Source: an uncultured Gammaproteobacteria bacterium
GTDB taxonomy: Bacteria; Pseudomonadota; Gammaproteobacteria; Arenicellales; JAANXG01
DNA length: 64,000 nucleotides
NCBI GenBank assembly: GCA_947258975.1
Contig: CAMYKK010000011.1
Coordinates: forward strand, 1 to 64,000
Direction: 5' to 3'
The notes under the pieces were generated by a model, which did no database searches, was not told the origin of the DNA, and saw only the letters and a list, made by a program, of their open reading frames with translations. This document shows positions 24,130-48,167 of the stretch, one piece after another. A program made the position numbers and the translations under genes. Position 1 is the stretch's first letter. The number at the start of each line of letters is the position of its first letter.

Positions 24130-24171
24130 ATGCAGTAAAGTGCCCACTTTATGCAGTAAAGTGCCCACTTT
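24130..24171. repeat. Exact 21-bp tandem duplication at the ppk2 stop
   Basis: The unit atgcagtaaagtgcccactt plus one more t occurs twice in direct succession (24130-24150 and 24151-24171). Each unit contains the palindrome AAAGTG-CC-CACTTT. The gene-proximal copy encodes the last residues and the stop codon of PPK2. Palindromic AAAGTGnnCACTTT motifs in tandem recall, from memory only, the multiple terminal repeats of IS21-family elements. Confidence 0.85.
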
Positions 24172-25060
24172 CGATGCGTTGCGCTTCCATCAACTCCAGT
24201 TCCCTTGCGCCGGACACAACTACTTTTGAATCTGCCGAAAATTCCAATGAGTTGTCGAGCCGCTCGTAAGGTACCGCGTTGAGGATCACTTTGATGGCAT
24301 TCAGACGTGCCTGGTGCTTACCATTGGAGCGGATCACGGTCCACGGACAGTCGATCGTATGAGTGCGTTTGAGCATTTCGTACTTAACGCCGGTGAACTC
24401 ATCCCAACGATCTTGCGCCTGTAAATCCACCTCACTCAATTTCCATTGTCTTAAGGGATCGGTTCTGCGCCTCTCAAAACGGCGCGCCTGCTCATCTTTG
24501 GTAACACTGAAATATAGCTTTAACAAGGTGGTGCCGTTACGCACTAAATCTTTCTCAAAGCCTTTTACCCCCTGCATAAAATGCTCGTACTCTTCCGAAG
24601 TACAGAAACCGAATACTTTCTCCACCATGGCGCGGTTATACCAACTGCGGTCAAACAGCACCACTTCACCACCGCGGGGGAACTGCGAGACGTATTTTTG
24701 AAAATACCATTGAGTACGCTGATCTTCCGTTGGTTTTCCCAAGGCTACAATGCGATAGTGCTTTTCATTCATATAACGTGTGACACGGCGGATTGTACCG
24801 CCTTTCCCGGCGGCGTCGCGTCCCTCGAAGACGATGATCATGCGCTTGTTATTGTCTTCCAGGTAACGTTGCATTCTGATCAATTCGGCTTGAAACGGCT
24901 TTAGCTCTTCATCCTGACTATGCTTGCGTTGTGCCTTATCTTCCACATCATTATATTTCCCTTGCTCTGCTGCCAGTCCTTGATAACGTTGCAGTAATTC
25001 ATCTACGGTAATTTGTTTACCATCCAGCTCTACCACCACACTTTTGTTTCCATTACTCAT
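24149..25060 (-). CDS. ppk2: Polyphosphate kinase 2
   Basis: A 303-residue PPK2-family enzyme that transfers phosphate between polyphosphate and nucleotides. Walker A is GRDAAGKGG (80-88), Walker B includes DRSWYNRA (137-144), and the family pattern YFQKYVSQFPRGGEVVLFDR is intact, as is the lid region RRTDPLRQWKLSEVD. Length is normal for class I, one-domain PPK2. The stop codon lies at the edge of a 21-bp tandem duplication. It converges with the transglycosylase gene across about 200 nt without a gene. Together with the ppx and ppk1 genes elsewhere in the window it indicates active polyphosphate use. Confidence 0.93.
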   Translation of the reverse strand: MSNGNKSVVVELDGKQITVDELLQRYQGLAAEQGKYNDVEDKAQRKHSQDEELKPFQAELIRMQRYLEDNNKRMIIVFEGRDAAGKGGTIRRVTRYMNEKHYRIVALGKPTEDQRTQWYFQKYVSQFPRGGEVVLFDRSWYNRAMVEKVFGFCTSEEYEHFMQGVKGFEKDLVRNGTTLLKLYFSVTKDEQARRFERRRTDPLRQWKLSEVDLQAQDRWDEFTGVKYEMLKRTHTIDCPWTVIRSNGKHQARLNAIKVILNAVPYERLDNSLEFSADSKVVVSGARELELMEAQRIESGHFTA

Positions 25061-25479: not shown

Positions 25480-25525
25480 ATGGGGTCGGAGTGCATTTTT
25501 TTAATGCACCCCGACCCCATTACTC
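25480..25525 (+). repeat. 46-nt hairpin repeat, copy 1
   Basis: An 18-bp stem with one G-T wobble and a five-T loop: atggggtcggagtgcatt pairs with aatgcaccccgaccccat, followed by tactc. It is identical over 46 nt, and in the same orientation, to the copy at 29127-29172. It could work as a terminator-like hairpin, but its exact repetition points to a REP-type or transposase-mobilised element. Confidence 0.85.
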
Positions 25526-26765: not shown

Positions 26766-28976
26766 CTATTCCGGAATGTACACCACGCCATTGTGGAAAA
26801 TGATCGCAGCATCTACGGCCGGAACGATATCGATATCGGGCAGGTTTGCAGCGCTCAACGGCGGTACCGCACCATCGAGGATACCCCGCGGCACTGTGCG
26901 GACTACCTGGCTCGCGGGCAGCACGCTACCTTCGGTTAGGTGCGCGTACATGAGATTGTGCGCCTGTACGAAGTAGTAGTGAAGCGGAACGAAGAGCGCC
27001 CCGACCTCCGGAAAACCGTTGAACGCATCACCGTGTTGCGCATTCGTGACCTCGACATACGATAGTTGGCTTCTGCTGCCCTCAACCTGTCGATTCAGGC
27101 CGAAATAAGCCCGGCTCGCGTGATTGGGCGCAATCACGGAATCGGATCGCCCGGTGACGAGGATAGCCGGCGTTCCGCGAAGGTTCCCCGATGCCTGAAT
27201 CTGGCGAATACTCGCCCGCAGTCGATTGCTCAGGGCCCGCATGCGCCCGAAGAGCGGAGCGCCTGTCGTCTCGTCTCGACCGGTCCACAGACTGCGCAGA
27301 CATAGCGCGCCGTCGAGATTTTGATCGGGAATACCATCGTTGCTCAACGAGGCAATGTTCAGCCGCGGTCCGCCGAGCGAGCGATCGTTGATGATTTCGA
27401 TGCTGCCGCCGGGGATCGGCGCGCCGAAACTCGTCGGTGCTGATCCTGCCGCCACGCCGAAGAGCAGCTGCGAAGGCACCGGGTCGAGTGGGATGGGCAC
27501 ACCGGACTCGTGGGTAGCCGCGAAACTATAGCCGCACAAACCGTCCTCCACGCCGGCACGCGTGTAGGCGTTTGCAGTACTCACACTGCCGGATTGGATG
27601 AACTGCAATGCCCAGGTGGCTGGACCCAGTGGGTTCTGCTCAGGAAGGAAACCGTAATCGTTGATGATCGCTTGAGCCTCCAACGCCTGCTGCGCCGGCG
27701 TTTCCGTCATCAATAGCCCCTTGGCGCGCAGTGAAGCACACACAAACTGGCCGAGCTGCGGAGGGGTAAGGTTCAACAGCACGCCGAAGGGATAGGCGAT
27801 GTTGGCGCAACCCTGATAGACGTTCCGCAGGGTAGTGTAATCGTAGGAGGCTTTGCCGGGCTCGGTGAATGCCGGGCCGTTGCCCTGCTGAATGGTGAGG
27901 CGCCGCCGCAGGCGCGGATTGACGTTTGGCTCAGAGCCCGCCAATCCGTCGATGAGCCGGGCGTCATCTGCTTCGACCGCGAGCAGACTCGCGCCGGAAC
28001 CGTTCGAGATGCTCGAGGCGATGACCACCGTATTGTCAGGCCGCAAACGACGCAACAACCCGATATCATCCTGGTTCAGGACCGCAAACGCGAAGCGGAT
28101 GGATTTCAGCACGTCACGCCCCCAGCGCGCCTCGGAATTGCGCCTTGTATGCATGAATTTGAACGCGAATCGATTCGGCGACTCCTCGTTAAACTGCTGG
28201 CGTCTCGCCTCGCTCAGAGGCGCGGTGAAGTTTGAAAATCGCCCGGCCACTGTGGCGTCCTCGCGCAGGCCGTTGATAAGGCTGACGGTGTTGTTCTGAA
28301 TGTCGTGGATGCCGTTGCCCGCCCCTTTGTCGGTGTAAGCTACCGCGCAACCCTGTTTCAGACCCCATGCACCGCTGGTCCCGATCGCGCCGTAAATCCC
28401 TCTAAGACCTGACGCTGGCCCAGCCACGATGCATGGCGCGTCCTCGTCGAAATTGTTCGGCACGTGGACCATCATGGTCACGTTGGCCCGGCCGGACCGG
28501 GGGGTGGCGTACGCGAGGCACTCCCAGCCCGCAATGCGTCCGTCGGTCGCCGAATTGAAGCCCGGCAGACCATCGTTGCTTACTGTTGGCCCGAAGAAAG
28601 TGCCGAATCCACCTCCGGGGGCAGTGTCAATGATCCCGCGGTAGTTCGAGTAAATAGCAAGCCGGCGAAGTTCCGCGGCGGTCGGATCAAAAGGGTTTGC
28701 CGGAAGTGGCGGCGTCGGATTGGCGATCCCGGTCGCACCCAGTCCGCCAGTCAGCAGGTCGTCGGTATTCCCATCATAGAAGTTGCACACCACGTTCGAT
28801 ACACGTTCACCGAGGTTTTCTTCGACTTCCGATGCTTCATGATCTCCCACCGCGAAGAGGGTTCCGCTACCTCCCAACAGAAAGAGAGCCGCAAGAAGAC
28901 GGCAACCGTAACTCAACTTGCCGCTCTGTGAGCGGGCAATCGCTTGTTGTTGATGCTGGTTTGGTGTTCGGTGCAT
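26766..28976 (-). CDS. D-(-)-3-hydroxybutyrate oligomer hydrolase
   Basis: A 736-residue secreted esterase of the 3HBOH family, which splits oligomers of 3-hydroxybutyrate released by PHB depolymerases. An N-terminal signal peptide (about 20-42, CRLLAALFLLGGSGTLFA) is followed by a mature protein of the usual size. The putative nucleophile lies in SSISNGSGASLLAVEAD, and other conserved stretches are AYTDKGAGNGIHD and GCANIAYPFGVLLNL. A strong GGAGGG precedes the ATG. The gene appears more GC-rich than its neighbours and sits in the repeat-bounded segment, with no PHB synthase or depolymerase near, consistent with acquisition by transfer. Confidence 0.88.
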   Translation of the reverse strand: MHRTPNQHQQQAIARSQSGKLSYGCRLLAALFLLGGSGTLFAVGDHEASEVEENLGERVSNVVCNFYDGNTDDLLTGGLGATGIANPTPPLPANPFDPTAAELRRLAIYSNYRGIIDTAPGGGFGTFFGPTVSNDGLPGFNSATDGRIAGWECLAYATPRSGRANVTMMVHVPNNFDEDAPCIVAGPASGLRGIYGAIGTSGAWGLKQGCAVAYTDKGAGNGIHDIQNNTVSLINGLREDATVAGRFSNFTAPLSEARRQQFNEESPNRFAFKFMHTRRNSEARWGRDVLKSIRFAFAVLNQDDIGLLRRLRPDNTVVIASSISNGSGASLLAVEADDARLIDGLAGSEPNVNPRLRRRLTIQQGNGPAFTEPGKASYDYTTLRNVYQGCANIAYPFGVLLNLTPPQLGQFVCASLRAKGLLMTETPAQQALEAQAIINDYGFLPEQNPLGPATWALQFIQSGSVSTANAYTRAGVEDGLCGYSFAATHESGVPIPLDPVPSQLLFGVAAGSAPTSFGAPIPGGSIEIINDRSLGGPRLNIASLSNDGIPDQNLDGALCLRSLWTGRDETTGAPLFGRMRALSNRLRASIRQIQASGNLRGTPAILVTGRSDSVIAPNHASRAYFGLNRQVEGSRSQLSYVEVTNAQHGDAFNGFPEVGALFVPLHYYFVQAHNLMYAHLTEGSVLPASQVVRTVPRGILDGAVPPLSAANLPDIDIVPAVDAAIIFHNGVVYIPE

Positions 28977-29126: not shown

Positions 29127-29172
29127 ATGGGGTCGGAGTGCATTTTTTTAATGCACCCCGACCCCATTACTC
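29127..29172 (+). repeat. 46-nt hairpin repeat, copy 2
   Basis: Identical in sequence and orientation to the copy at 25480-25525. The two copies bracket a 3.6-kb segment holding the LuxR-type regulator and the oligomer hydrolase. This copy ends 14 nt before the stop of the GGDEF/EAL gene. Confidence 0.85.
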
Positions 29173-33256: not shown

Positions 33257-33867
33257 GATATATCGAATCTGTGAGAGAGCCTTTCAGACGCGAACAAATA
33301 ATCGCGGCTCTTGTCCCCGCATAGCAGGGGAGCGAGCTTCTCGATCATCTCGAACAACCGACCAGGTTCGACCAACCGCTGCTGCACTCAGTCCGAGGGC
33401 CGCCGCCAGCGCCTTCACTGGATCGACCGTAATTTCAATGACCAACGCAGGGAAGCGATGACCGGCCAAGCCATCGCGCGGCCGTACTCGTGACCAACAA
33501 CGAACAATCCCTCCCTGAGGCGCCCGCGGACCCGTAACGGGTCGTTTGTGTGCGCCGCGCATTTAAAAGATTCTCCCCCACATGACCCTGCCAACCTCGC
33601 AGCATGGTGGCCGTGAGCACTATGCCGGCCACCGGCATAGCGGGGGTTATGATTCCTATCCGTCGCTACCCACGGTCCATACAACGAAGCACAGATGGCT
33701 CAATCAAGAACGATCGAGCGCCTCTCTAGATCTTTACTGTTTTGATGTGTTGATTTGTTCGTCATGTTGCTGTAAACGATAACCGACATCCGTCAGTAGA
33801 TAAGGATGGAGGATGAGGGATATATCCCTGGAGTTTTGGGCGCGCTCGGTACCTGTGATCGGGAAGA

Positions 33868-33890
33868 CTCGCGGTTTCCTCAACCGCGAG
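33868..33890. repeat. Perfect 9-bp hairpin in the peptide-cluster upstream region
   Basis: CTCGCGGTT (33868-33876), a 5-nt loop, then AACCGCGAG (33882-33890). No T-run follows on the plus strand. It lies about 350 nt before the precursor gene and might be a terminator for upstream transcription, an operator or part of a structured leader RNA. Confidence 0.6.
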
Positions 33891-34238
33891 GCGTGTCGGT
33901 TGTGTGCAATGTGGTTGTTTGCGAAACAACCCCCACTTCACTGGGTCGCAATCTAGGGTGACCCAAGTTTCTACCAACCCGGTTCACGGCTCGTCGAGAT
34001 ATGTTCGCTTTGCATCTGTCGGGCAATTCATGCCGTCTCACCGCGCTCATTCGAGCGGCAGGCATCGCGGACTGGGAATAGGCAACGAGTGGGTTGTACT
34101 GGGTGCTGACCGAAACGTCGTCGTAAGGAAGCGGAATTCAGCGGATGTCCATGCCCTTACCGCAAGGCGCATCGGCGTGCCGCCGGTTGCTACGTCGATG
34201 AATCATCCACTAAAAACGTCGATCAAGAGGAAACTTCC

Positions 34239-34487
34239 ATGGTCAAGAAAGCTAGCTATAAAACCGTAAACAGAAAGCTCGTTTTGAAGGTTTTGACGGA
34301 CGCCGGGTTTCGTAGGCAACTCAAGGCAAATCCTGCCAAGGCGCTTGGTAAGAAGCGGCTGTCGGCGATCGAACGTAAAGAGGTTGACCTGGTATTGGCG
34401 GTGGTCAAGGGGATCGACCGTCAGATCGGCGGTCTTGCCGACGAGTTGCTGTGCGCCAATGGCGGCGGAGGTTGCGGTATTGCTTGA
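34239..34487 (+). CDS. Putative RiPP precursor peptide, Gly/Cys-rich C-terminus
   Basis: An 82-residue basic peptide with an apparent leader and core. The leader contains VLKVLTDAGFRRQLKANPAKAL, here residues 15-36, close to the D-x-x-F-R-x-x-L-x-x-x-P-x-x-A-L pattern of nitrile-hydratase-like (NHLP) leader peptides, then an amphipathic helix to about residue 68. The presumed core is CANGGGGCGIA (72-82), with only two cysteines (72 and 79) bracketing four glycines. A clear AAGAGG ribosome binding site lies 8 nt before the ATG. Directly downstream are three radical SAM enzymes. No GG-type protease site is obvious. Family assignment is inference and the core boundary is not established. Confidence 0.7.
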   Translation: MVKKASYKTVNRKLVLKVLTDAGFRRQLKANPAKALGKKRLSAIERKEVDLVLAVVKGIDRQIGGLADELLCANGGGGCGIA

Positions 34488-35580
34488 GGTCGATGACCTG
34501 CCGAATGCTGAAGTACTAGTCGCTACGACTTGGCAATGCAATCTGAGGTGTAGTTATTGCTTCGTCAAGGATCAGACGCTGAAGGAACACCGCCCGCGCA
34601 TGTCGGCTGCGACGGCGAGACGTTTGATCGATACCCTGGATGTCGGTATGCGCCACGTCGAGTCGATCTGCGTCCACCTGTATGGCGGAGAGCCGTTAAC
34701 GAATATGCCGGCCCTTAAGGCGATGGTAGAAAGGGCCGAGCAGAAACACGCAGGCCGCTTTACGTTCGCAATTACCACTAACGGTACATTAATGTCTGAC
34801 AAGATCATCGAAATGTTGGACCGGGGGCGGTTCCAAGTGATTCTGAGTATTGACGGACCGCCGCAGGTGCATAACGCCTGTCGTCGGAGCGTGGGTGCCG
34901 CTCCGACGCACCACAAGGTGATGGCTTTTCTTGATGCCGTAAAGTCCCGAACCCGATGCTGGGTACGGGGGTCGGCCGTAGTGCGCAGGGGCTGGCGACT
35001 GCGGGACGCTGAACTTTATCTACGCAGCTTGCCGGTCGACTCCATCAAGGCGCAGGCGGTTCGAGTCTCGGCATCGGATCCATTTGCTCTGTCCGCCACA
35101 GAAAAACAGGATTATCTGCACGACCTGGATGAAGTCGGAAGCTTAGTGATCTCTGACCTCGAGGCGGGCAGGCGGCCTGTGGATGACCGGTTCGCCAACC
35201 GGGTGCTTCAGATCCTCAAAGGGGATGTACGCGACAGCTTCTGCGGCGCTGGAAATACCACTTTCGGTTTCATGCCCGACGGTTCGGTTACACCCTGCGT
35301 GCTGCTTGAAGGTGAAGATCAAGGGCTCGGGCATATCGACGATGACCCCGACACCTGGATCACCGCCGGGAGTCGCTGGAAGAAGACAAACGGGGTCCGG
35401 AAAGACTGCCTGGATTGCCCCGCTAAACCGCTATGCGGTGGGGGATGCCCCGCCATCCTGCCGATTTGCGGCGCCAACGAATGCGACATCATCCGCAAGA
35501 ATTGTGACGTCGCCCGAGGAATTTATCGACACTTCGCGGAGCGGCCGGAAATGCTCTTGCCCCTTGCCGGACTGGCGTAA
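34480..35580 (+). CDS. Radical SAM/SPASM peptide maturase 1
   Basis: A 366-residue radical SAM enzyme. The [4Fe-4S]-SAM motif is CNLRCSYC (Cys20, 24, 27), followed by YGGEP and the SIDGPPQVHN region. The C-terminal SPASM domain shows a full set of cysteines: CGAGNTTFGFMPDGSVTPC, then CLDCPAKPLCGGGC and a late Cys, enough for two auxiliary clusters. Such enzymes form thioether or C-C bonds on peptides. I favour a TTG start at 34480, 8 nt after GGAGG (34467-34471), overlapping the precursor stop. An ATG at 34459, inside the precursor gene, is the alternative. No N-terminal RRE-like recognition domain is visible. It is translationally coupled to the precursor. Confidence 0.85.
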   Translation: MLEVDDLPNAEVLVATTWQCNLRCSYCFVKDQTLKEHRPRMSAATARRLIDTLDVGMRHVESICVHLYGGEPLTNMPALKAMVERAEQKHAGRFTFAITTNGTLMSDKIIEMLDRGRFQVILSIDGPPQVHNACRRSVGAAPTHHKVMAFLDAVKSRTRCWVRGSAVVRRGWRLRDAELYLRSLPVDSIKAQAVRVSASDPFALSATEKQDYLHDLDEVGSLVISDLEAGRRPVDDRFANRVLQILKGDVRDSFCGAGNTTFGFMPDGSVTPCVLLEGEDQGLGHIDDDPDTWITAGSRWKKTNGVRKDCLDCPAKPLCGGGCPAILPICGANECDIIRKNCDVARGIYRHFAERPEMLLPLAGLA

Positions 35581-35584
35581 AGCC

Positions 35585-36778
35585 ATGGACGTTAACCGGG
35601 CTCCTGACGGCTTCGATCCAGAGGACATCGCGCCGCCGGCGATGCGCGAGAGGAACTGGCCGATCAACTCGCTGGCGCTCGACCTTTCCGGACGCTGCAA
35701 CATAGCTTGCCGTTATTGCGCGGAATCCGCCACCCAGCCCAAGCACCGGCGTCGCATGAGTGAGGCCGTGTTGGAGGCCGCGCTGGAACAGCTTGCCTGC
35801 GAGTCGGATTTTGATCAGTTCAAAAGTATCAGGCTGGGAAGCGGCGAACCGCTGCTGGCCAAGCCCCTTGCGCGCCATCTCGACCGTCGTCTCAAGGAAC
35901 TGGCCAAAGAAGGACGCGCCGTACCTCAGGTATTCGTTACCACAAATGGTACGCGACTAGACCGCGAGACCCGTGAATGGCTGATCGAAACAGGTTGGCA
36001 CGTAAAGATCAGCCTTGACGGGCCGGCGCATGTGCATGATCGATGGCGAGTCACTGCCAAGGGGGGACCCACTTACGATCAGATTGCAGAAGTCGCTACT
36101 GAGCTTGCACGGCGTATCCCCGATCGTTTCAGCGTCACAGCAGTGTTATGCCGAGGTAGCGATCCGCAGGAGGTGTTCAGCGCCATTGCCGCGATCGGTG
36201 TACGTCGCATCGAAATGGTCCCTGTCGCCCATCACAATCCGGACATCCTGCCTGACGAGACGGACATTGCGCATTACCAGGGTTTCGTCTCGGAATATGC
36301 AAAGGCTTATGCGTCACGCGTCGACACGCAGCCGGAACTCGTGCGCGTGATCAATGCGGCCCGTCGGGTGATGGGATACGATGTGAAAACCGTCACCTGC
36401 GGCGCGGGCCGCAATTTTCTAGGAGTCGGTCCGGACGGCGGTTTGTATCCGTGCTTTCGTTTTATCGGGCTGGATGGATTTCTTGTGGGTGATGTCATCC
36501 GGGGATCTTCTGCAGACGCCTTGCGTGCTTTTCAGTCGTACGCCGGGCGTTCCTACGAATGCCGCGAACAATGTCGTTGTTGTTGGGCGGCTCCGTTGTG
36601 CGGCGGCCCTTGTTTTGCGGAGGCCGAATTGTTCGGAGCCGGCGAGGGCGCGCCTTTCGCGGTGCATTGTCATTACATCAAGGCCGATTCGATCGCAGCC
36701 ATCAACTTGGTCGAAGAATTACGCAAGACAAATCCGGAACGCTTATTAGACTTTCTAGCCGGTGTTGTCGAATTTTGA
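35585..36778 (+). CDS. Radical SAM/SPASM peptide maturase 2
   Basis: A 397-residue radical SAM enzyme whose ATG lies 4 nt after the previous stop. The catalytic motif is CNIACRYC (Cys38, 42, 45). Downstream come GSGEPLL, VTTNGT and the SLDGPAHVHDRW signature, and the SPASM region has CGAGRNFLGVGPDGGLYPC and CRCCWAAPLCGGPC plus a final CHY. It is clearly related to maturase 1 but diverged, so the two may act on different residues or as a complex. The frame is open 400 nt upstream through maturase 1, but that stretch is only out-of-frame sequence. No RRE domain is visible. Confidence 0.87.
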   Translation: MDVNRAPDGFDPEDIAPPAMRERNWPINSLALDLSGRCNIACRYCAESATQPKHRRRMSEAVLEAALEQLACESDFDQFKSIRLGSGEPLLAKPLARHLDRRLKELAKEGRAVPQVFVTTNGTRLDRETREWLIETGWHVKISLDGPAHVHDRWRVTAKGGPTYDQIAEVATELARRIPDRFSVTAVLCRGSDPQEVFSAIAAIGVRRIEMVPVAHHNPDILPDETDIAHYQGFVSEYAKAYASRVDTQPELVRVINAARRVMGYDVKTVTCGAGRNFLGVGPDGGLYPCFRFIGLDGFLVGDVIRGSSADALRAFQSYAGRSYECREQCRCCWAAPLCGGPCFAEAELFGAGEGAPFAVHCHYIKADSIAAINLVEELRKTNPERLLDFLAGVVEF

Positions 36779-36783
36779 CCTGT

Positions 36784-38055
36784 ATGCGGCCGGTCGTTGT
36801 TCTCGTTAAACCCCCGGAGCAATCCCGCTTCAATTTTGGGACCTTCAGTTTGGGCGTGCTTGCCGCATCAGTCAGGGATCTGGCGGTGATCCACATCCTC
36901 GATGCCACCGATCTCACGTTGGACGCGACGGTGGACCACATCGATGCGCTCGAGCCTGACTGGGTGGGCATCACGACGATGGCGCTGTCGTCTTTGTCCC
37001 CCGCAACCAAGTTGATCAAGTCTCTCAAACCACGCGTGCCGCAAGCCTGGATCATTGTAGGGGGGCATGGTGCGTCGATGCTGCCCCGGATACCCCTGGA
37101 GGCCGGTGCCGATGCGGTGGTCACGGGGGAGGGCGAGGTTGCATTCAGGCGGTTGATGGAAAAGGGCATCGAACTCGATTCCCCCGGCGTGGGGCAACTG
37201 ATCGATGGCGCTCTGCGAACCGCTCCGAAGCCGCCCCCGATCAGGCCGTTGGATAAGCTGTTACCGCCCGCCCGGGACCTGATGCCAAAGCCGGAAAATC
37301 AGGTGCATTTGATGGAAACCAGCCGGGGGTGTCCGCACGATTGCCGCTTCTGCGAGACCACCCGCTTCTATGGCAGGCGATGGCGCTATCACTCGCCACA
37401 AAGGGTGGCGGACGAAGTACGGCACCTGGTAAGCGACGTGGGTGCGTGGATCATAGAGATCACCGATGACAATTTCGGCGCCAGCCGCCGGCGCGTGCTA
37501 CAGATATGCGAGCGCTTGACCAACCAAGCGCTGCCTGCGGTTTTCTTGCTCTCGGCGCGCGCCGACGATTTGCTGGCGCGCCCGGAGCTACTTCCGGCCA
37601 TGGCGCGAGCGCGTATGCTGCGTATCTCAGTGGGTGTGGAGACCTTGTCGCCCAAGCTAGCCCGTTCAGCGGGTAAGTTCATCGCCCTGGACATCTACCG
37701 GGAACTATTCAACAAAATGCGGAATTTAGGCATGTTCTCGGTGGCCTCCTTCATCGTCGGTCTGCCGGGCGAAACATCCGCGGAACGTGAGCGGACCTTA
37801 AGATTGGCCCTATCCGCTGGACCCGATTCCGCTCAGTTTGTCCCGTTTTATCCTTTTCCCGGCGTACCCTTGGCCGAGGGATACTCCGGTTGCGACCCTT
37901 CGCCTGATGCAATTGCGGCGGCAGCGCGGCTCACTGCCGAATTTTACAACGCCGACGAAGTTAGAAACCGGCTGCTTCGCGCTGCGCAGGGCGGAGACGT
38001 TCGTGCTTCCCTCGCGCAGGGTACTCTTGAAAAATATGCCGTTGCGAGATGTTAA
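36784..38055 (+). CDS. B12-binding-type radical SAM enzyme
   Basis: A 423-residue class B radical SAM protein starting 5 nt after maturase 2. Residues 1-145 form a Rossmann-like cobalamin-binding domain with VGGHGASMLPR and AVVTGEGEVAF; the DxHxxG cobalamin-ligand motif is not seen, as in several subgroups. The radical SAM motif is CPHDCRFC (Cys183, 187, 190), followed by EITDDNFGASRRR and VGVETLSPK. Such enzymes often methylate unactivated carbon or sulfur, and in RiPP pathways they methylate core residues. The clear ribosome spacing and position make it the last gene of the four-gene unit. The exact reaction cannot be told from sequence. Confidence 0.87.
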   Translation: MRPVVVLVKPPEQSRFNFGTFSLGVLAASVRDLAVIHILDATDLTLDATVDHIDALEPDWVGITTMALSSLSPATKLIKSLKPRVPQAWIIVGGHGASMLPRIPLEAGADAVVTGEGEVAFRRLMEKGIELDSPGVGQLIDGALRTAPKPPPIRPLDKLLPPARDLMPKPENQVHLMETSRGCPHDCRFCETTRFYGRRWRYHSPQRVADEVRHLVSDVGAWIIEITDDNFGASRRRVLQICERLTNQALPAVFLLSARADDLLARPELLPAMARARMLRISVGVETLSPKLARSAGKFIALDIYRELFNKMRNLGMFSVASFIVGLPGETSAERERTLRLALSAGPDSAQFVPFYPFPGVPLAEGYSGCDPSPDAIAAAARLTAEFYNADEVRNRLLRAAQGGDVRASLAQGTLEKYAVARC

Positions 38056-38181
38056 CGCCGTCCCGATTGCAGTCCCGCATCCAAACAGCGCAGTGATCCG
38101 GTTTGGTCTTCGTCAGTCAATCCATAGCTACGCCTATGCACTTCGCTCCAGCGCGGCGGCCTGTGCGTATCGAATTCCTAA

Positions 38182-38442
38182 TCACGTAGCCATCGGCAAC
38201 TGGACGAGTCCGCGACAATGCGATTCCCAACGAAAGTCATCGAGTTTAACTTGTTCTCTAATGGAGTCACCGCGGACTTCAGCCGGGGTTTTGCCATCAA
38301 GCGATGCATGAACACGTCTCTGGTTGTAATAATACCGGAGCTCTCGGAGCTTCCTCTCCAGATCAACCGAGTTCCAGAAAATAATGTGATCAAGGAATTC
38401 ACGGCGAACCGTTCCTATTCGGCGTTCAACAAAAAGGGCGGG
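38182..38442 (-). pseudogene. 3' end of an integrase-core transposase
   Basis: On the minus strand an uninterrupted 86-residue C-terminal fragment ends at a stop at 38182-38184. It reads FVERRIGTVRREFLDHIIFW, then DLERKLRELRYYYNQRRVHA, and closes with DDFRWESHCRGLVQLPMAT. This is the end of an rve-type DDE transposase, including the Glu of the third catalytic position (VERRIG). A stop codon precedes it and the msrB gene begins just upstream, so the 5' two thirds are gone. It lies 127 nt after the radical SAM cluster. Confidence 0.82.
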
Positions 38443-38458
38443 TTAGCGGCCTGTCGGG

Positions 38459-43267: not shown

Positions 43268-43741
43268 CTATGAAACGGTATACGCGCCGGTGCCTACCGC
43301 GATGAGTGTGTCGTGTTCATTGTGCAACTCCATCCGGGTGACCGCGACTTTGTTGCCGGTGCGCAGAATAAATCCGGTAGCTATAAAATGATTGCCGCGT
43401 CCCGGGCGCAGGTAATCGATGCGCAGATCGATGGTCCCAAGCTTGGCAAAGCGGGCGAATTTCTCCTCCCGCGACAACTCATCGAGTTTTTCCATTAAGT
43501 TCAAAAACGCCACCAGACCACCGGTCACATCCAATACCGCCGCGGTAACCCCGCCGTGCAGGGTCTTGTGGATGAAATTCCCCACCAGGTCATCGCGCAT
43601 GTCTATCTCCACAGTTGGTTGGGCCGGATCCAGCGAACCGACCCGCAAGCCGAGCAGTTTGTTGTATGGGATGCGTTCGCTGAACAGGATTGAAATGACT
43701 TGCTGGATGTCGTTGATTTTTAGCAGTTCCTTCATCAACAA
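43268..43741 (-). CDS. PaaI-like hot-dog thioesterase
   Basis: A 157-residue hot-dog thioesterase. The conserved HGG motif sits in [18 protein letters not shown] (residues 59-76), followed by [11 protein letters not shown] and a closing [11 protein letters not shown]. It probably hydrolyses acyl-CoA. It heads a leftward unit with lemA and the DUF2207 gene at 15-nt spacing, so a role in maintaining membrane lipids would fit but is inference. The start at 43741 precedes the core by the usual length. Confidence 0.87.
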
Positions 43742-43802
43742 CAGGATACACGCTCAACTGCGCGTTATCCATGTGGTGCGATCTTCCCACCGGTCCAATT
43801 TA

Positions 43803-46800
43803 ATGGTTAACTCTCACCCTGTGTTCAAGTCCTTTCATCCTGCGGTCTCCAACTGGTTGCAGGCCACGTTCGACAGGCCCACGCCGTGCCAGATCCATGC
43901 CTGGCCGGCCATCCGCGCCCACACACACACCCTGGTGGCGGCGCCAACCGGTTCCGGCAAAACCCTCGCCGCGTTCCTGTGCGCTATCGATGATCTGGTG
44001 CAGCAGGGCCTGTCGGGCGGTGGGTTACCGGACGCTACCCAAGTGCTGTATGTATCTCCGCTCAAGGCACTGTCCAACGATATCAAGAAAAATCTCGAGA
44101 TGCCGCTGCAAGGCGTTCGTGATCAGTTATTGGAGTTGGGCTTGGGAGATGTCGACGTGCAGGCTTGGGTGCGAACCGGCGATACCCCTCAGTCCGAGCG
44201 CGACCGCATGCGCCGTCAACCACCCCACATCTTGGTGACCACGCCCGAATCTCTATTCATCATGTTGACATCGAATTCCGGCCGCTCGATGTTGTCCGCG
44301 GTGCGCACGGTGATTGTGGATGAAATTCACGCGCTGGCCGGTAACAAGCGTGGGGCGCACCTGGCGTTGTCGTTGGAACGGTTGACGGCGCTCACAGAAC
44401 ATCCCGTGACGCGCATCGGCTTATCCGCGACGCAAAAACCCGTGCGCGAGATCGCCAACTATCTGATTGGCGTGGCAGAGCAGCCATGCAAGATCGTGGA
44501 TATGGGGCACGTGCGCGAGCGCGACTTGGCTATGGAGGTGAGTGGCATACCGCTGGAGGCAGTTATGTCCACCGAGGCCTGGGCCCAGGTTTACGCACGA
44601 CTGGCCGAACTAGTTCGGGTGCATCGGACCACGTTGATATTCGTGAACACCCGCCGCATGGCGGAACGCACTGCGCGCCACCTGGCGGAACATTTGGGCG
44701 ATGAGGCGGTAACCGCTCATCACGGGAGTCTGGCCCGGGAACAACGGTTACGGGCGGAACAGCGTTTGAAGGCCGGTGAGTTGCAGGCGTTGGTGGCCAC
44801 CGCGTCGCTGGAATTGGGCATCGACATCGGTGAAGTCGATTTGGTATGTCAAATCGGTTCGCCGCGATCGATTTCCACGTTCCTGCAACGCGCGGGTCGA
44901 TCCGGGCACGCCCTGGGAGCGATATCCAAAGGCCGCATGTTCCCTGTTTCCCGCGACGACCTGGTGGAGTGTGCCGCATTGCTGGATGCGGTACAGCGCG
45001 ATGAGCTCGAGGCATTGGCGATTCCGTCCGCACCCTTGGATGTGTTGGCGCAACAAATTGTGGCCGAGGTCGCGAGCCGTGAGTGGGAGTGTGCGGCCCT
45101 GTTCCAACAGTTGACCCGCGCGTGGCCCTACCGGTTGCTCACCCGCGAACAGTTCGACGATGTCATTGCCATGCTCGCCGACGGATTTTCTACCCGGCGT
45201 GGCAGGAGAAGTGCATATCTGCATTACGATGCGGTCAATCGCCGCTTGCGGGCGCGGCGCGGCGCGCGTTTGACCGCGCTCACTAACGGTGGTGCGATCC
45301 CGGATCAATTCGATTACGACGTCGTGTTGGAACCCGACGAGCAACAAATCGGTACCCTGAACGAAGACTTCGCGTTTGAAAGCCTGCCGGGCGATATCTT
45401 TCAACTCGGCAACACCTCCTATCGCATCCTCAGAATCGAGCAGGGAAAGGTGCGCGTCGAGGATGCCAAGGGCCAGCCGCCGAACATTCCGTTCTGGTTC
45501 GGGGAGGCGCCGGGGCGCAGCGTTGAATTGTCGCACGCGGTGGCTCGCTTCCGTAAAGAGTTTGCATCGAATTTTTCGCGGCGTGGCGAGGAAGGGGTAC
45601 GCGAATGGCTGCGTCGGCGTGGATTGGCCGAGGCGGTGTCGTGCCAGATAGTTGATTACCTGGCTGCCGGACATGCGGCGCTGGGCTGCCTGCCGACCCA
45701 AGACACCATCGTGTTGGAGCGATTCTTCGACGAGTCGGGCGACACCCATCTAGTGGTACATTCATCGTTTGGATCCCGTTTGAATCGTGCTTGGGGATTG
45801 TCGCTGCGCAAACGTTTTTGCAGAAAGTTCAATTTTGAGCTTCAGGCGGCGGCACTAGAGGATACGATCGTACTTTCTTTGAGTAACACCCATAGTTTCC
45901 CGTTGGAAGACGTCCGGCATTATCTACGTGCCGATAACGTAAAGGAGATTTTGATCCAGGCGCTGTTGGCGGCGCCGGTATTCATCACCCGCTGGCGCTG
46001 GGTCTGCAATATCGGCCTTGCCGTGCGGCGTAACCGTAACGGCAAGGGAATACCCGCACAGCTGCAACGCATGGACTCCGAGGATCTGATCGCGGTGGTT
46101 TTTCCGGACCAGCTGGCGTGCCAGGAAAACATCGTCGGGCAAAGAGAGGTTCCCGACCATCCGCTGGTCGATCAGACCCTTCGTGATTGTCTGCACGACG
46201 CGATGGATGTCGACGGCTTGCAACGCCTGTTGTCGCGGATCGAGCGGGGCGAAGTCGAGATCGTGGCCCGCGATCTGACGGGGCCGTCTCCGCTTGCGCA
46301 GGAGATCCTCACTGCCCGCCCGTACGCATTCCTGGATGATGCCCCGGCCGAGGAACGGCGCACCCGTGCGGTCCAGGCCCGCGGGTTCATGGACCCGCAA
46401 TCGGCGGCGGATCTGGGGCGGCTCGATCCGTTGGCCATCGAGCAGGTGTGTCAGGAAGCGTGGCCCCAGGCGCACAACGCCGACGAGTTGCATGATGCGT
46501 TGCTGATATATGGTTTTGTCACCGTCGAGGAGGGTGCGCGTGGAAATGCACAGGGGCGGACGGATCACGCTGTCACCGCGTTGGATTTCGGGTGGCGGCA
46601 TCTGTTCGATTCCCTGGTTACACAACAACGCGCGACGAGCGTACAGCGCAGCGCAGGGTCCGATTTGTGGGTGGCGGTGGAGCGTCTGCCACAAATGACT
46701 ATGCTCTATCCCGATGCGAGCATTGTGCCGCCGATTCCGCCGGTAGCGACCAAAAACCATTGTTCAGCATCAGCCAGTGATGCGCTGCGTGAATTGTTAC

Positions 46801-48167
46801 GCAGCCGCTTGGAGGGACTGGGTCCGGTGACCACCGAGTCCCTTAGCGCGGCGTTTGCGCTGCCCGCATCAATGATCGCGGCCGCATTGTGCGCGCTGGA
46901 AGCGGAAGGCTTCGTCATGCGCGGGAATTTAGAGGGCAACGGTGTCGAACAATGGTGTGAGCGGCGCCTGCTTGCACGGATTCACCGTTACACGATCAAG
47001 ACACTACGCAAACAGGTCGAACCGGTGACCTGTGCCGACTTTATGCGTTTCTTGTTCGATTGGCAGCGGGTGTCAGTCCATCAGCGCGGTGAGGGCGATC
47101 AGGCGCTGTTGTCGGTGGTCGAACAACTGGCGGGTTTTGAAGGTGCCGCGGCGGCATGGGAAGGGGAGATCCTGGCGTCACGGGTGGCTGATTATGCCCC
47201 GGACACTCTGGACCGCCTGTGTCTGGCGGGACGGGTACAATGGTTGCGGTTGGGTGCCGCCAAACTCGATCAACCGCGCGGCGGCGCGGTGCGTACGACG
47301 CCCATTACCCTGGTGCCGAGAAAACAGCGCCGCAACTGGGAGCAGGTCGCCGGCGCCAAGGATGGGTCGGAACGGGTCATTTCGGCCAGCGCAGAACGAA
47401 TTACCGAAATCTTGGCGCGGCGCGGCGCGTTGTTCTTTGACGAATTGGTCGATTTTTCCGGGATGCTGCGCTCGCAGGTCGAACAGGCGTTGGGTGAATT
47501 GGTGGCCTGCGGGATGGTAACGTCGGACGGTTTCAGCGGGTTGCGCGCGTTGATGGTACCCAGCGACCGCCGCCGTCCTTTTGGGAACCGTCGGCGGCGG
47601 CGCGCCGCGGCGTTCGGCATCGAGGAAGCCGGCCGTTGGACGTTGATCTGTTATCCGGAAGCGTTATCGGTGGACGATCAAGAACCGGCTGAAGCGCTCG
47701 GCGAAATCGCTTGGACATTGCTGCGCCGATACGGTGTGATGTGCCGGCGGTTGTTGGACCGTGAAGCGGCGTGGATGCCGCCATGGCGCTTGTTGTTGCC
47801 GGAGTTCAGGCGCTTGGAGGCGCGCGGGGAGATCCGCGGTGGCCGCTTTGTGGCCGCTCTTTCCGGCGAACAATTTGCACTCATCGAGGCGGTGGGGTTG
47901 CTGCGTGAAGTGCGCCGCCGAGCAAACGACGGCGTGATGGTGTCGGTCAGCGGCGCCGATCCACTCAACCTGACCGGCATCGTGGTACCGGGACCGCGGG
48001 TCCCGGCGTTGGCCGGCAACCACGTATTGTTCCGCGACGGCGTGGCGATCGCCTCCCAAGTGGGAAAGCAGGTCAGTTATCGATTGGAACTCGATGATGC
48101 GGCGCGCTGGGATGCGCATAACTCCTTAGTCAAACGCTCGCCGGGCACCCATCTGCGTGCGCATTGA
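43803..48167 (+). CDS. lhr: Lhr-type large superfamily 2 DEAD/H helicase
   Basis: A 1454-residue 3'-5' DNA translocase and helicase of the Lhr family, in the cytoplasm. Motif I is APTGSGKT (51-58), motif Ia SPLKALSND, motif II DEIH, motif III SATQ, and later motifs include [13 protein letters not shown]. The large Lhr C-terminal region is present, with a winged-helix domain and a long beta-rich extension, close to the full bacterial length. It is thought to act in DNA repair. The start is the ATG at 43803, whose ribosome binding site is weak; the open frame extends 384 nt further upstream over the opposite-strand thioesterase gene, and that part looks spurious. The shared divergent spacer is about 60 nt. 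Confidence 0.92.

Follow-up and report, generated by a model that had tools for sequence, protein, structure and literature searches.

A candidate RiPP maturation cassette with an NHLP/Os1348-type precursor, two SPASM radical SAM enzymes and a B12-binding radical SAM enzyme

Precursors of the NHLP/Os1348 (PosA) type (models NF038399, TIGR04509 and TIGR03793) have a leader of ~50–60 aa within a total of 82–85 aa, similarity to the alpha subunit of nitrile hydratase, a short C-terminal core and maturation genes adjoining, and peptide A of the locus described here is like them in each of these respects. Os1348 itself, from Pseudomonas sp. Os17, is a precursor of 85 aa (PMC7726476), and its cluster uses HEXXH and nitroreductase-type chemistry; the Pseudomonas Os1348-type clusters hold HEXXH and nitroreductase-type enzymes and no radical SAM enzyme (PMC12636437), unlike the present cassette of genes A, B, C and D. 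Moreover, A differs from these precursors in lying below all of their curated cut-offs and in its tail, LLC..CGIA. On the enzyme side, PapB and the SCIFF maturase CteB are, like B and C, radical SAM proteins with a SPASM domain that carries the Cys for two auxiliary clusters. The N-terminal region of CteB is a recognition domain, whereas B and C in the window are compact and have none; furthermore, the present locus has two paralogues per cluster, and the core of A shows neither the CX3D nor the six-Cys pattern. In the thuricin CD pathway, two radical SAM enzymes, TrnC and TrnD, form one tight complex and make thioethers (PMC12093266). By this description they resemble B and C in being two different radical SAM enzymes of one pathway, although thuricin CD has two precursors and no described B12 radical SAM enzyme, unlike the A–D cassette. 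Finally, ApyD and the TIGR03975 family share with D a B12-binding domain followed by a radical SAM domain, and act on peptide or protein substrates, but their model lengths are 606–645 compared with the 423 aa of D; MgmA (the MCR glutamine C-methylase, 9ccb) is similar to D in size and among the closest in length.

Layout and distribution of the cassette

In the window, by which we mean the whole 64,000-nt stretch of DNA that was analysed, the four genes lie in tandem, head-to-tail and tightly packed on the + strand in <4 kb. Gene A (34239–34487) encodes an 82-aa putative RiPP precursor, MVKKASYKTVNRKLVLKVLTDAGFRRQLKANPAKALGKKRLSAIERKEVDLVLAVVKGIDRQIGGLADELLCANGGGGCGIA, with an NHLP/Os1348-type leader at approximately residues 10–60 and a C-terminal core LLCANGGGGCGIA; this assignment draws on the ORF, a sub-cut-off match to NF038399, a profile match to 4ob1, the orthologues and dN/dS. 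Genes B (34459–35580) and C (35585–36778) encode SPASM radical SAM enzymes 1 and 2, of ~370 aa and ~397 aa (PF04055 at 9.1e-15 and 2.3e-16), and gene D (36784–38055) encodes a B12-binding radical SAM enzyme (PF02310 at 4.8e-14, PF04055 at 4.1e-20). The spacing is 4 nt between B and C and 5 nt between C and D, with A and B overlapping; the positions and tight spacing given for the four genes in an earlier note on this DNA were all recovered. The A/B overlap is 29 nt with the ATG at 34459 as the start of B and 8 nt with the TTG at 34480. We consider the TTG the more likely start; a GGAGG within the Gly codons of A (34467–34471, +), 8 nt before this TTG and kept in three genomes (window, G030 and G585), is its probable ribosome-binding site. 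The probable ribosome-binding site of A is AAGAGGAAA (34225–34233, +), with AGAGGAAA also kept in G030. The G+C content of the cassette is 58.8%, compared with 55.9% for the window.

The complete set A-B-C-D was present in identical order in five genomes from three phyla, several of these genomes being drafts. Apart from that of the window, they are a congener (G030), which carries the whole cassette with identities of 93, 86, 80 and 84% for A, B, C and D, a member of another family of the same class as the window (G585; 61–65%), and two genomes that surfaced from a scan of ~85,000 species genomes with an alignment of C, namely Chlorobium ferrooxidans DSM 13031 (L008) and a MAG of the Myxococcota (L009) (43–61%). 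Protein identity beyond the genus thus spans 43–65%. By kinship, a Magnetococcales genome shares the phylum of the window, which accordingly belongs to Pseudomonadota, and this brings the phyla with the cassette to three. The earlier note had proposed comparing homologous neighbourhoods, and in each of the five orthologous enzyme sets the radical SAM genes were preceded by a short gene coding for this shared tail.

Occurrence was sporadic: the cassette was seen in 2 of the 6 sampled members of the genus, in 1 of 81 genomes of the Chlorobium family sample, and in 1 of 148 and 1 of 284 genomes of the phylum samples. No further gene, be it for an exporter, protease, partner enzyme or immunity function, was shared across the loci; the matches between flanks came from kinase or regulator paralogues or were brief segments that the two congeners have in common. 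A dedicated peptidase (PqqF- or MftE-like) or partner enzyme was not seen beside the cassette either, and a C39 peptidase was undetected in four of the five cassette genomes, some of which are drafts. A sporadic pattern without common flanks would be consistent with a self-sufficient unit that has spread horizontally, as far as the sequences can tell. Since searches of plasmid, phage and IMG/VR sequences returned distant radical SAM relatives only, with no orthologue and no matching core, the cassette is not evidently plasmid- or phage-borne.

The precursor and its three enzymes

Against the Os1348 NHLP-clan model NF038399, A scored 28 bits (1.7e-6; cut-off 40) and its Chlorobium orthologue 31.1 bits, and the orthologues of A that were scanned likewise remained below threshold; against the full NHLP leader model TIGR03793, A scored 18.5 bits, below the cut-off of 50.9. 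A profile of the five precursors matched the alpha subunit of cobalt nitrile hydratase (4ob1_A) at 2.4e-5 over residues 13–60. On the basis of the sub-threshold Os1348 score and this profile match, we assign the leader to the nitrile hydratase-derived clan and place A outside every curated family.

The tail of A (residues 67–82; 34437–34484, +) contains C72 (34452–34454), C79 (34473–34475), a GG and the terminal CGIA. It reads LLC-AN-GGGG-CGIA in the window, G030 and G585, LLC-VT-GGGGG-CGIA in Chlorobium and LLC-NN-GGT-CGIA in the Myxococcota genome, with the consensus LLC-x(n)-GG-x(n)-CGIA and both Cys invariant in the five sequences. The five-sequence alignment has 30 invariant columns, 11 of the 17 in the tail compared with 19 of the 68 elsewhere (Fisher p = 0.006), and conservation is lower in the leader than in the tail. 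In the comparison with the congener, dN/dS was 0.059 for A, 0.104 for B, 0.175 for C and 0.157 for D; A is the most constrained gene of the cassette and is under strong purifying selection. Because gene order, the peptide tail and the reading frames are kept across three phyla and A has this low dN/dS, we regard the cassette as not due to chance. The Gly/Cys candidate precursor of the earlier note is encoded by a real and selected gene with an invariant pair of Cys in its tail, and an accidental ORF is disfavoured, since all five sets keep A under selection. In the Myxococcota set, A and B do not overlap, the start of B lying beyond the end of A, and CGIA is nevertheless kept, so its conservation is not owed to an overlap with gene B. 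The tail has no aromatic residue; the groups available in it are carbons of Asn/Thr, Gly, Ile and Ala and two thiols. What the sequences show are the genes, their order, conservation, selection and families; the chemistry and role of the product are inferred. Such a near-invariant tail would imply a single conserved product and not a diversifying toxin, and because the tail hardly varies, the role of the product is probably single and fixed; whether this conserved role is a non-antibiotic one we place at even odds.

B and C are 28% identical to each other. The radical SAM Cys are C27, C31 and C34 in B and C38, C42 and C45 in C, and the SPASM Cys are C262, C280, C317, C320, C326, C330 and C349 in B and C272, C290, C330, C333, C339, C343 and C362 in C; the CX3CX2C site and the seven-Cys SPASM set are invariant in all five B and all five C proteins. 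The CxxxCxxC sites of B, C and D, described as intact in the earlier note, were indeed intact and also invariant across the five orthologous sets. The top families for B and C were the PapB, quinohemoprotein-amine-dehydrogenase-type, Nif11-peptide and SCIFF maturases, with scores that came to roughly half of the respective cut-offs at most: the PapB family (NF047865) gave 143.6 bits for B (8.3e-42) and 172.5 bits for C (1.4e-50), below the cut-off of 340, and the SCIFF maturase (TIGR03974) gave 119.1 and 127.8 bits, below the cut-off of 425. The nearest PDB sequence to B was CteB (SCIFF thioether maturase, 5wgg; 6.1e-37). CteB was also the best match to the predicted fold of B, with anSME, TigE and ChlB also near, in an AlphaFold model of moderate quality (pLDDT 64, compared with 77 for D; the alignments were shallow). 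A tree that included 23 other relatives recovered B and C each as a supported clade, and the two clades were mutual sisters within this set; wherever orthologues of B or C were seen, homologues of both co-occurred.

The radical SAM Cys of D are C183, C187 and C190, and its placement in class B, the B12 radical SAM enzymes, is a domain assignment from PF02310 and PF04055, both above gathering scores. The top NCBIfam scores of D, ApyD (2.3e-38; 132 bits, cut-off 750) and BchE (3.8e-35), were far below cut-off, and TIGR03975 gave 53.2 bits, below 281.85. The profile relatives of solved structure were AprD4, CysS, MgmA, TokK, OxsB and TsrM, and the predicted fold matched the same set. Because the relatives of D include both methylases and non-methylases (AprD4, OxsB and BchE), and because crosslinking in biphenomycin-type pathways is the work of a B12 radical SAM enzyme (PMC12257519) and ThnL reportedly makes a thioether (PMC13331322), methylation by D is somewhat favoured by analogy yet not secure. 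If D is a methylase, C-methylation would be more likely than S-methylation, judged from these relatives. No score of B, C or D reached the cut-off of any named NCBIfam enzyme family, which speaks against a named non-RiPP pathway, the outcome that the earlier note had singled out as contrary to its reading.

Proposed maturation and rival readings

Our overall explanation, to which we give a probability of about 0.6, is a self-contained RiPP maturation cassette in which the leader docks the enzymes, B and C act on the tail and D adds a cobalamin step. A would be translated as a leader–core peptide, and its folded NHLP/Os1348-type leader would dock the enzymes directly; B and C are too compact to accommodate a recognition domain at the N terminus. 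B and C, two old paralogues, may then act jointly on the LLC-x(n)-GG-x(n)-CGIA tail and cooperate as TrnC and TrnD do in thuricin CD, and by this analogy a B–C complex is probable. They would abstract hydrogen from carbons of NGG or CGIA and link these to Cys72 and/or Cys79 as thioethers, a chemistry of the sacti-/ranthipeptide type, and the two invariant Cys are compatible with a thioether from Cys sulfur to carbon. D may put a carbon-bound methyl, or another cobalamin-dependent change, onto the tail before or after the action of B and C, while leader removal and export, if any, would fall to host proteins coded elsewhere. The parts of this explanation differ in strength: RiPP maturation as such is very probable, Cys as the target is likely, and the thioether, the most likely product bond and argued from analogy, falls slightly short of an even chance. 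The reading of the locus as a RiPP cluster, put forward in the earlier note, is supported by the upstream short gene conserved in all five sets, by the NHLP/Os1348-type leader, which that note did not mention, and by enzymes that reach no named NCBIfam cut-off. The chemistry that the note proposed, a thioether or C–C bond at Cys72/Cys79 and methylation by the third enzyme, is a plausible model in view of the homology of B to CteB and ChlB and of D to MgmA, TsrM and TokK. We found no published pathway with this gene set in a literature search of incomplete coverage; as far as checked, the RiPP parts of the cassette are of known kinds, and their combination, the core and a pair without recognition domains appear to be new.

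The same radical chemistry could serve another function, with a product that is cut from CxNGG..CGIA and works as a small cofactor, metal-binding agent or signal, by a logic like that of PQQ or mycofactocin, and not as a secreted antimicrobial. This would agree with a tail near-invariant across three phyla beside a diverging leader, with flanks that share no exporter or immunity gene, with the C39 peptidase undetected in four of the five genomes and with two spaced Cys that could bind metal; however, no PqqF/MftE-like peptidase or partner enzyme adjoins, and an occurrence as sporadic as 1/81 in the Chlorobium family sample and 2/6 in the genus is unusual for a core cofactor, and we regard this function as possible but tentative. 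Modified A might also stay full length as a small redox or metal-binding protein with the leader as part of the functional molecule, but the leader shows less conservation than the tail, and NHLP leaders are removed in characterised proteusins. We consider this unlikely, even with a leader that is related to part of the alpha subunit of nitrile hydratase, with no protease found, and with the Os1348 precursor having been seen full-length in cells (PMC7726476; PMC12636437). If, on the other hand, the GG were a double-glycine protease motif in the NHLP style, the core would be only GGCGIA and Cys72 would belong to the leader. Many NHLP leaders finish with GG, and E(-8) and L(-7) fit three of the five sequences. 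Two sequences, however, have Q or K at position -8, a large hydrophobic residue is missing at position -4, Cys72 never varies, and we reject a C39 double-glycine peptidase route for the four genomes where no such peptidase was detected, all of which makes this motif improbable.

With regard to the bond itself, B and C may oxidise, cleave or C–C crosslink the tail instead of forming a thioether, by anSME-like Cys oxidation (conversion of Cys to formylglycine), cyclophane-like or backbone chemistry. The anSME and ChlB folds are about as close to B as that of CteB, and B and C are below every enzyme-family cut-off; yet the best functional matches include CteB/SCIFF and PapB, and the tail lacks Trp, Tyr, His and Phe, which are the usual cyclophane targets, and we hold such chemistry to be doubtful. 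A non-RiPP system, with an unrelated small molecule as the substrate of B, C and D and with A as a subunit or an accidental ORF, could point to the small-molecule enzymes BchE, AprD4 and OxsB among the B12 radical SAM relatives. It is highly improbable in view of the precursor-type leader of A, the conservation and selection of A in five sets, and the fact that the top scores of the two SPASM enzymes are to maturases of peptides or proteins.

Going beyond the preferred reading of a leader-docked maturation cassette, a more novel proposal is that a mutually dependent SPASM pair and a cobalamin radical SAM enzyme, docked by an NHLP leader instead of a recognition domain, would make a structurally fixed Cys-Gly-core peptide with a CGIA end, and that this product would be a new class of RiPP-derived cofactor or metal-binding agent spread horizontally between phyla, which we rate as rather unlikely. 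Radical SAM peptide editing is a major source of new chemistry, and a compact set with five natural variants makes direct expression and solution feasible; this could reveal the division of labour in a SPASM pair, the reading of an NHLP leader without a recognition domain and a product kept across three phyla.

Related loci and surrounding sequence

An orthologue of the B–C pair with N-terminal extensions is present in an unclassified genome, bacterium DP16D_bin.2 (L010, 124–5443). As in the cassette, the pair is accompanied by an Os1348-type small peptide and a B12 radical SAM gene, but the 71-aa peptide comes after C and has a different core, ending GVGARGVGVSIRIRF, and the B12 enzyme is a member of TIGR03975, the RiPP C-methyltransferases. 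Because the B homologue of this locus aligns to CteB from residue 8, it carries the CteB-type N-terminal region that is absent from B of the window. We regard the locus as a second candidate RiPP cluster, and with its gene set the combination of SPASM pair, NHLP-clan peptide and B12 radical SAM enzyme occurs in two architectures with different B12 enzymes. Orthologues of B and C also form a tandem SPASM pair at L007:3-1870, on a Magnetococcales contig that also carries L011; it is ended by the contig edge, and no B12 radical SAM gene was seen following C there.

Approximately 350 nt 5' of A, a non-coding block (33731–33889, strand unassigned) is ~80% identical to its counterpart in the congener, has almost no other match in either genome, and may be a promoter/operator region. 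It holds the GGGATATATCCC and CTCGCGGTT..AACCGCGAG palindromes and is a possible regulatory site. An Rfam scan around the cassette, including this block, gave zero matches, and a promoter/terminator scan showed no excess above shuffles, with the sigma-70 consensus not found. Downstream of D, a frame at 38180–38443 (-) in the window, chosen after a weak match to a transposase-like ORF close to the cassette of G030, had stops throughout in the frame read and was taken no further. Further downstream, a 1582-aa open frame (43419–48167, +) is opposed by sizeable frames at 44748–45749 and 45924–46760. A REP/MITE-like near-palindrome, ATGGGGTCGGAGTGCAT..ATGCACCCCGACCCCAT, occurs in two identical 46-nt copies (25480–25525 and 29127–29172) that flank a 3HB-oligomer hydrolase gene. 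Genes for polyphosphate kinase 2 and this hydrolase lie close to each other at 24149–25060 and 26766–28976 (-), which suggests storage-polymer metabolism beside the cassette.
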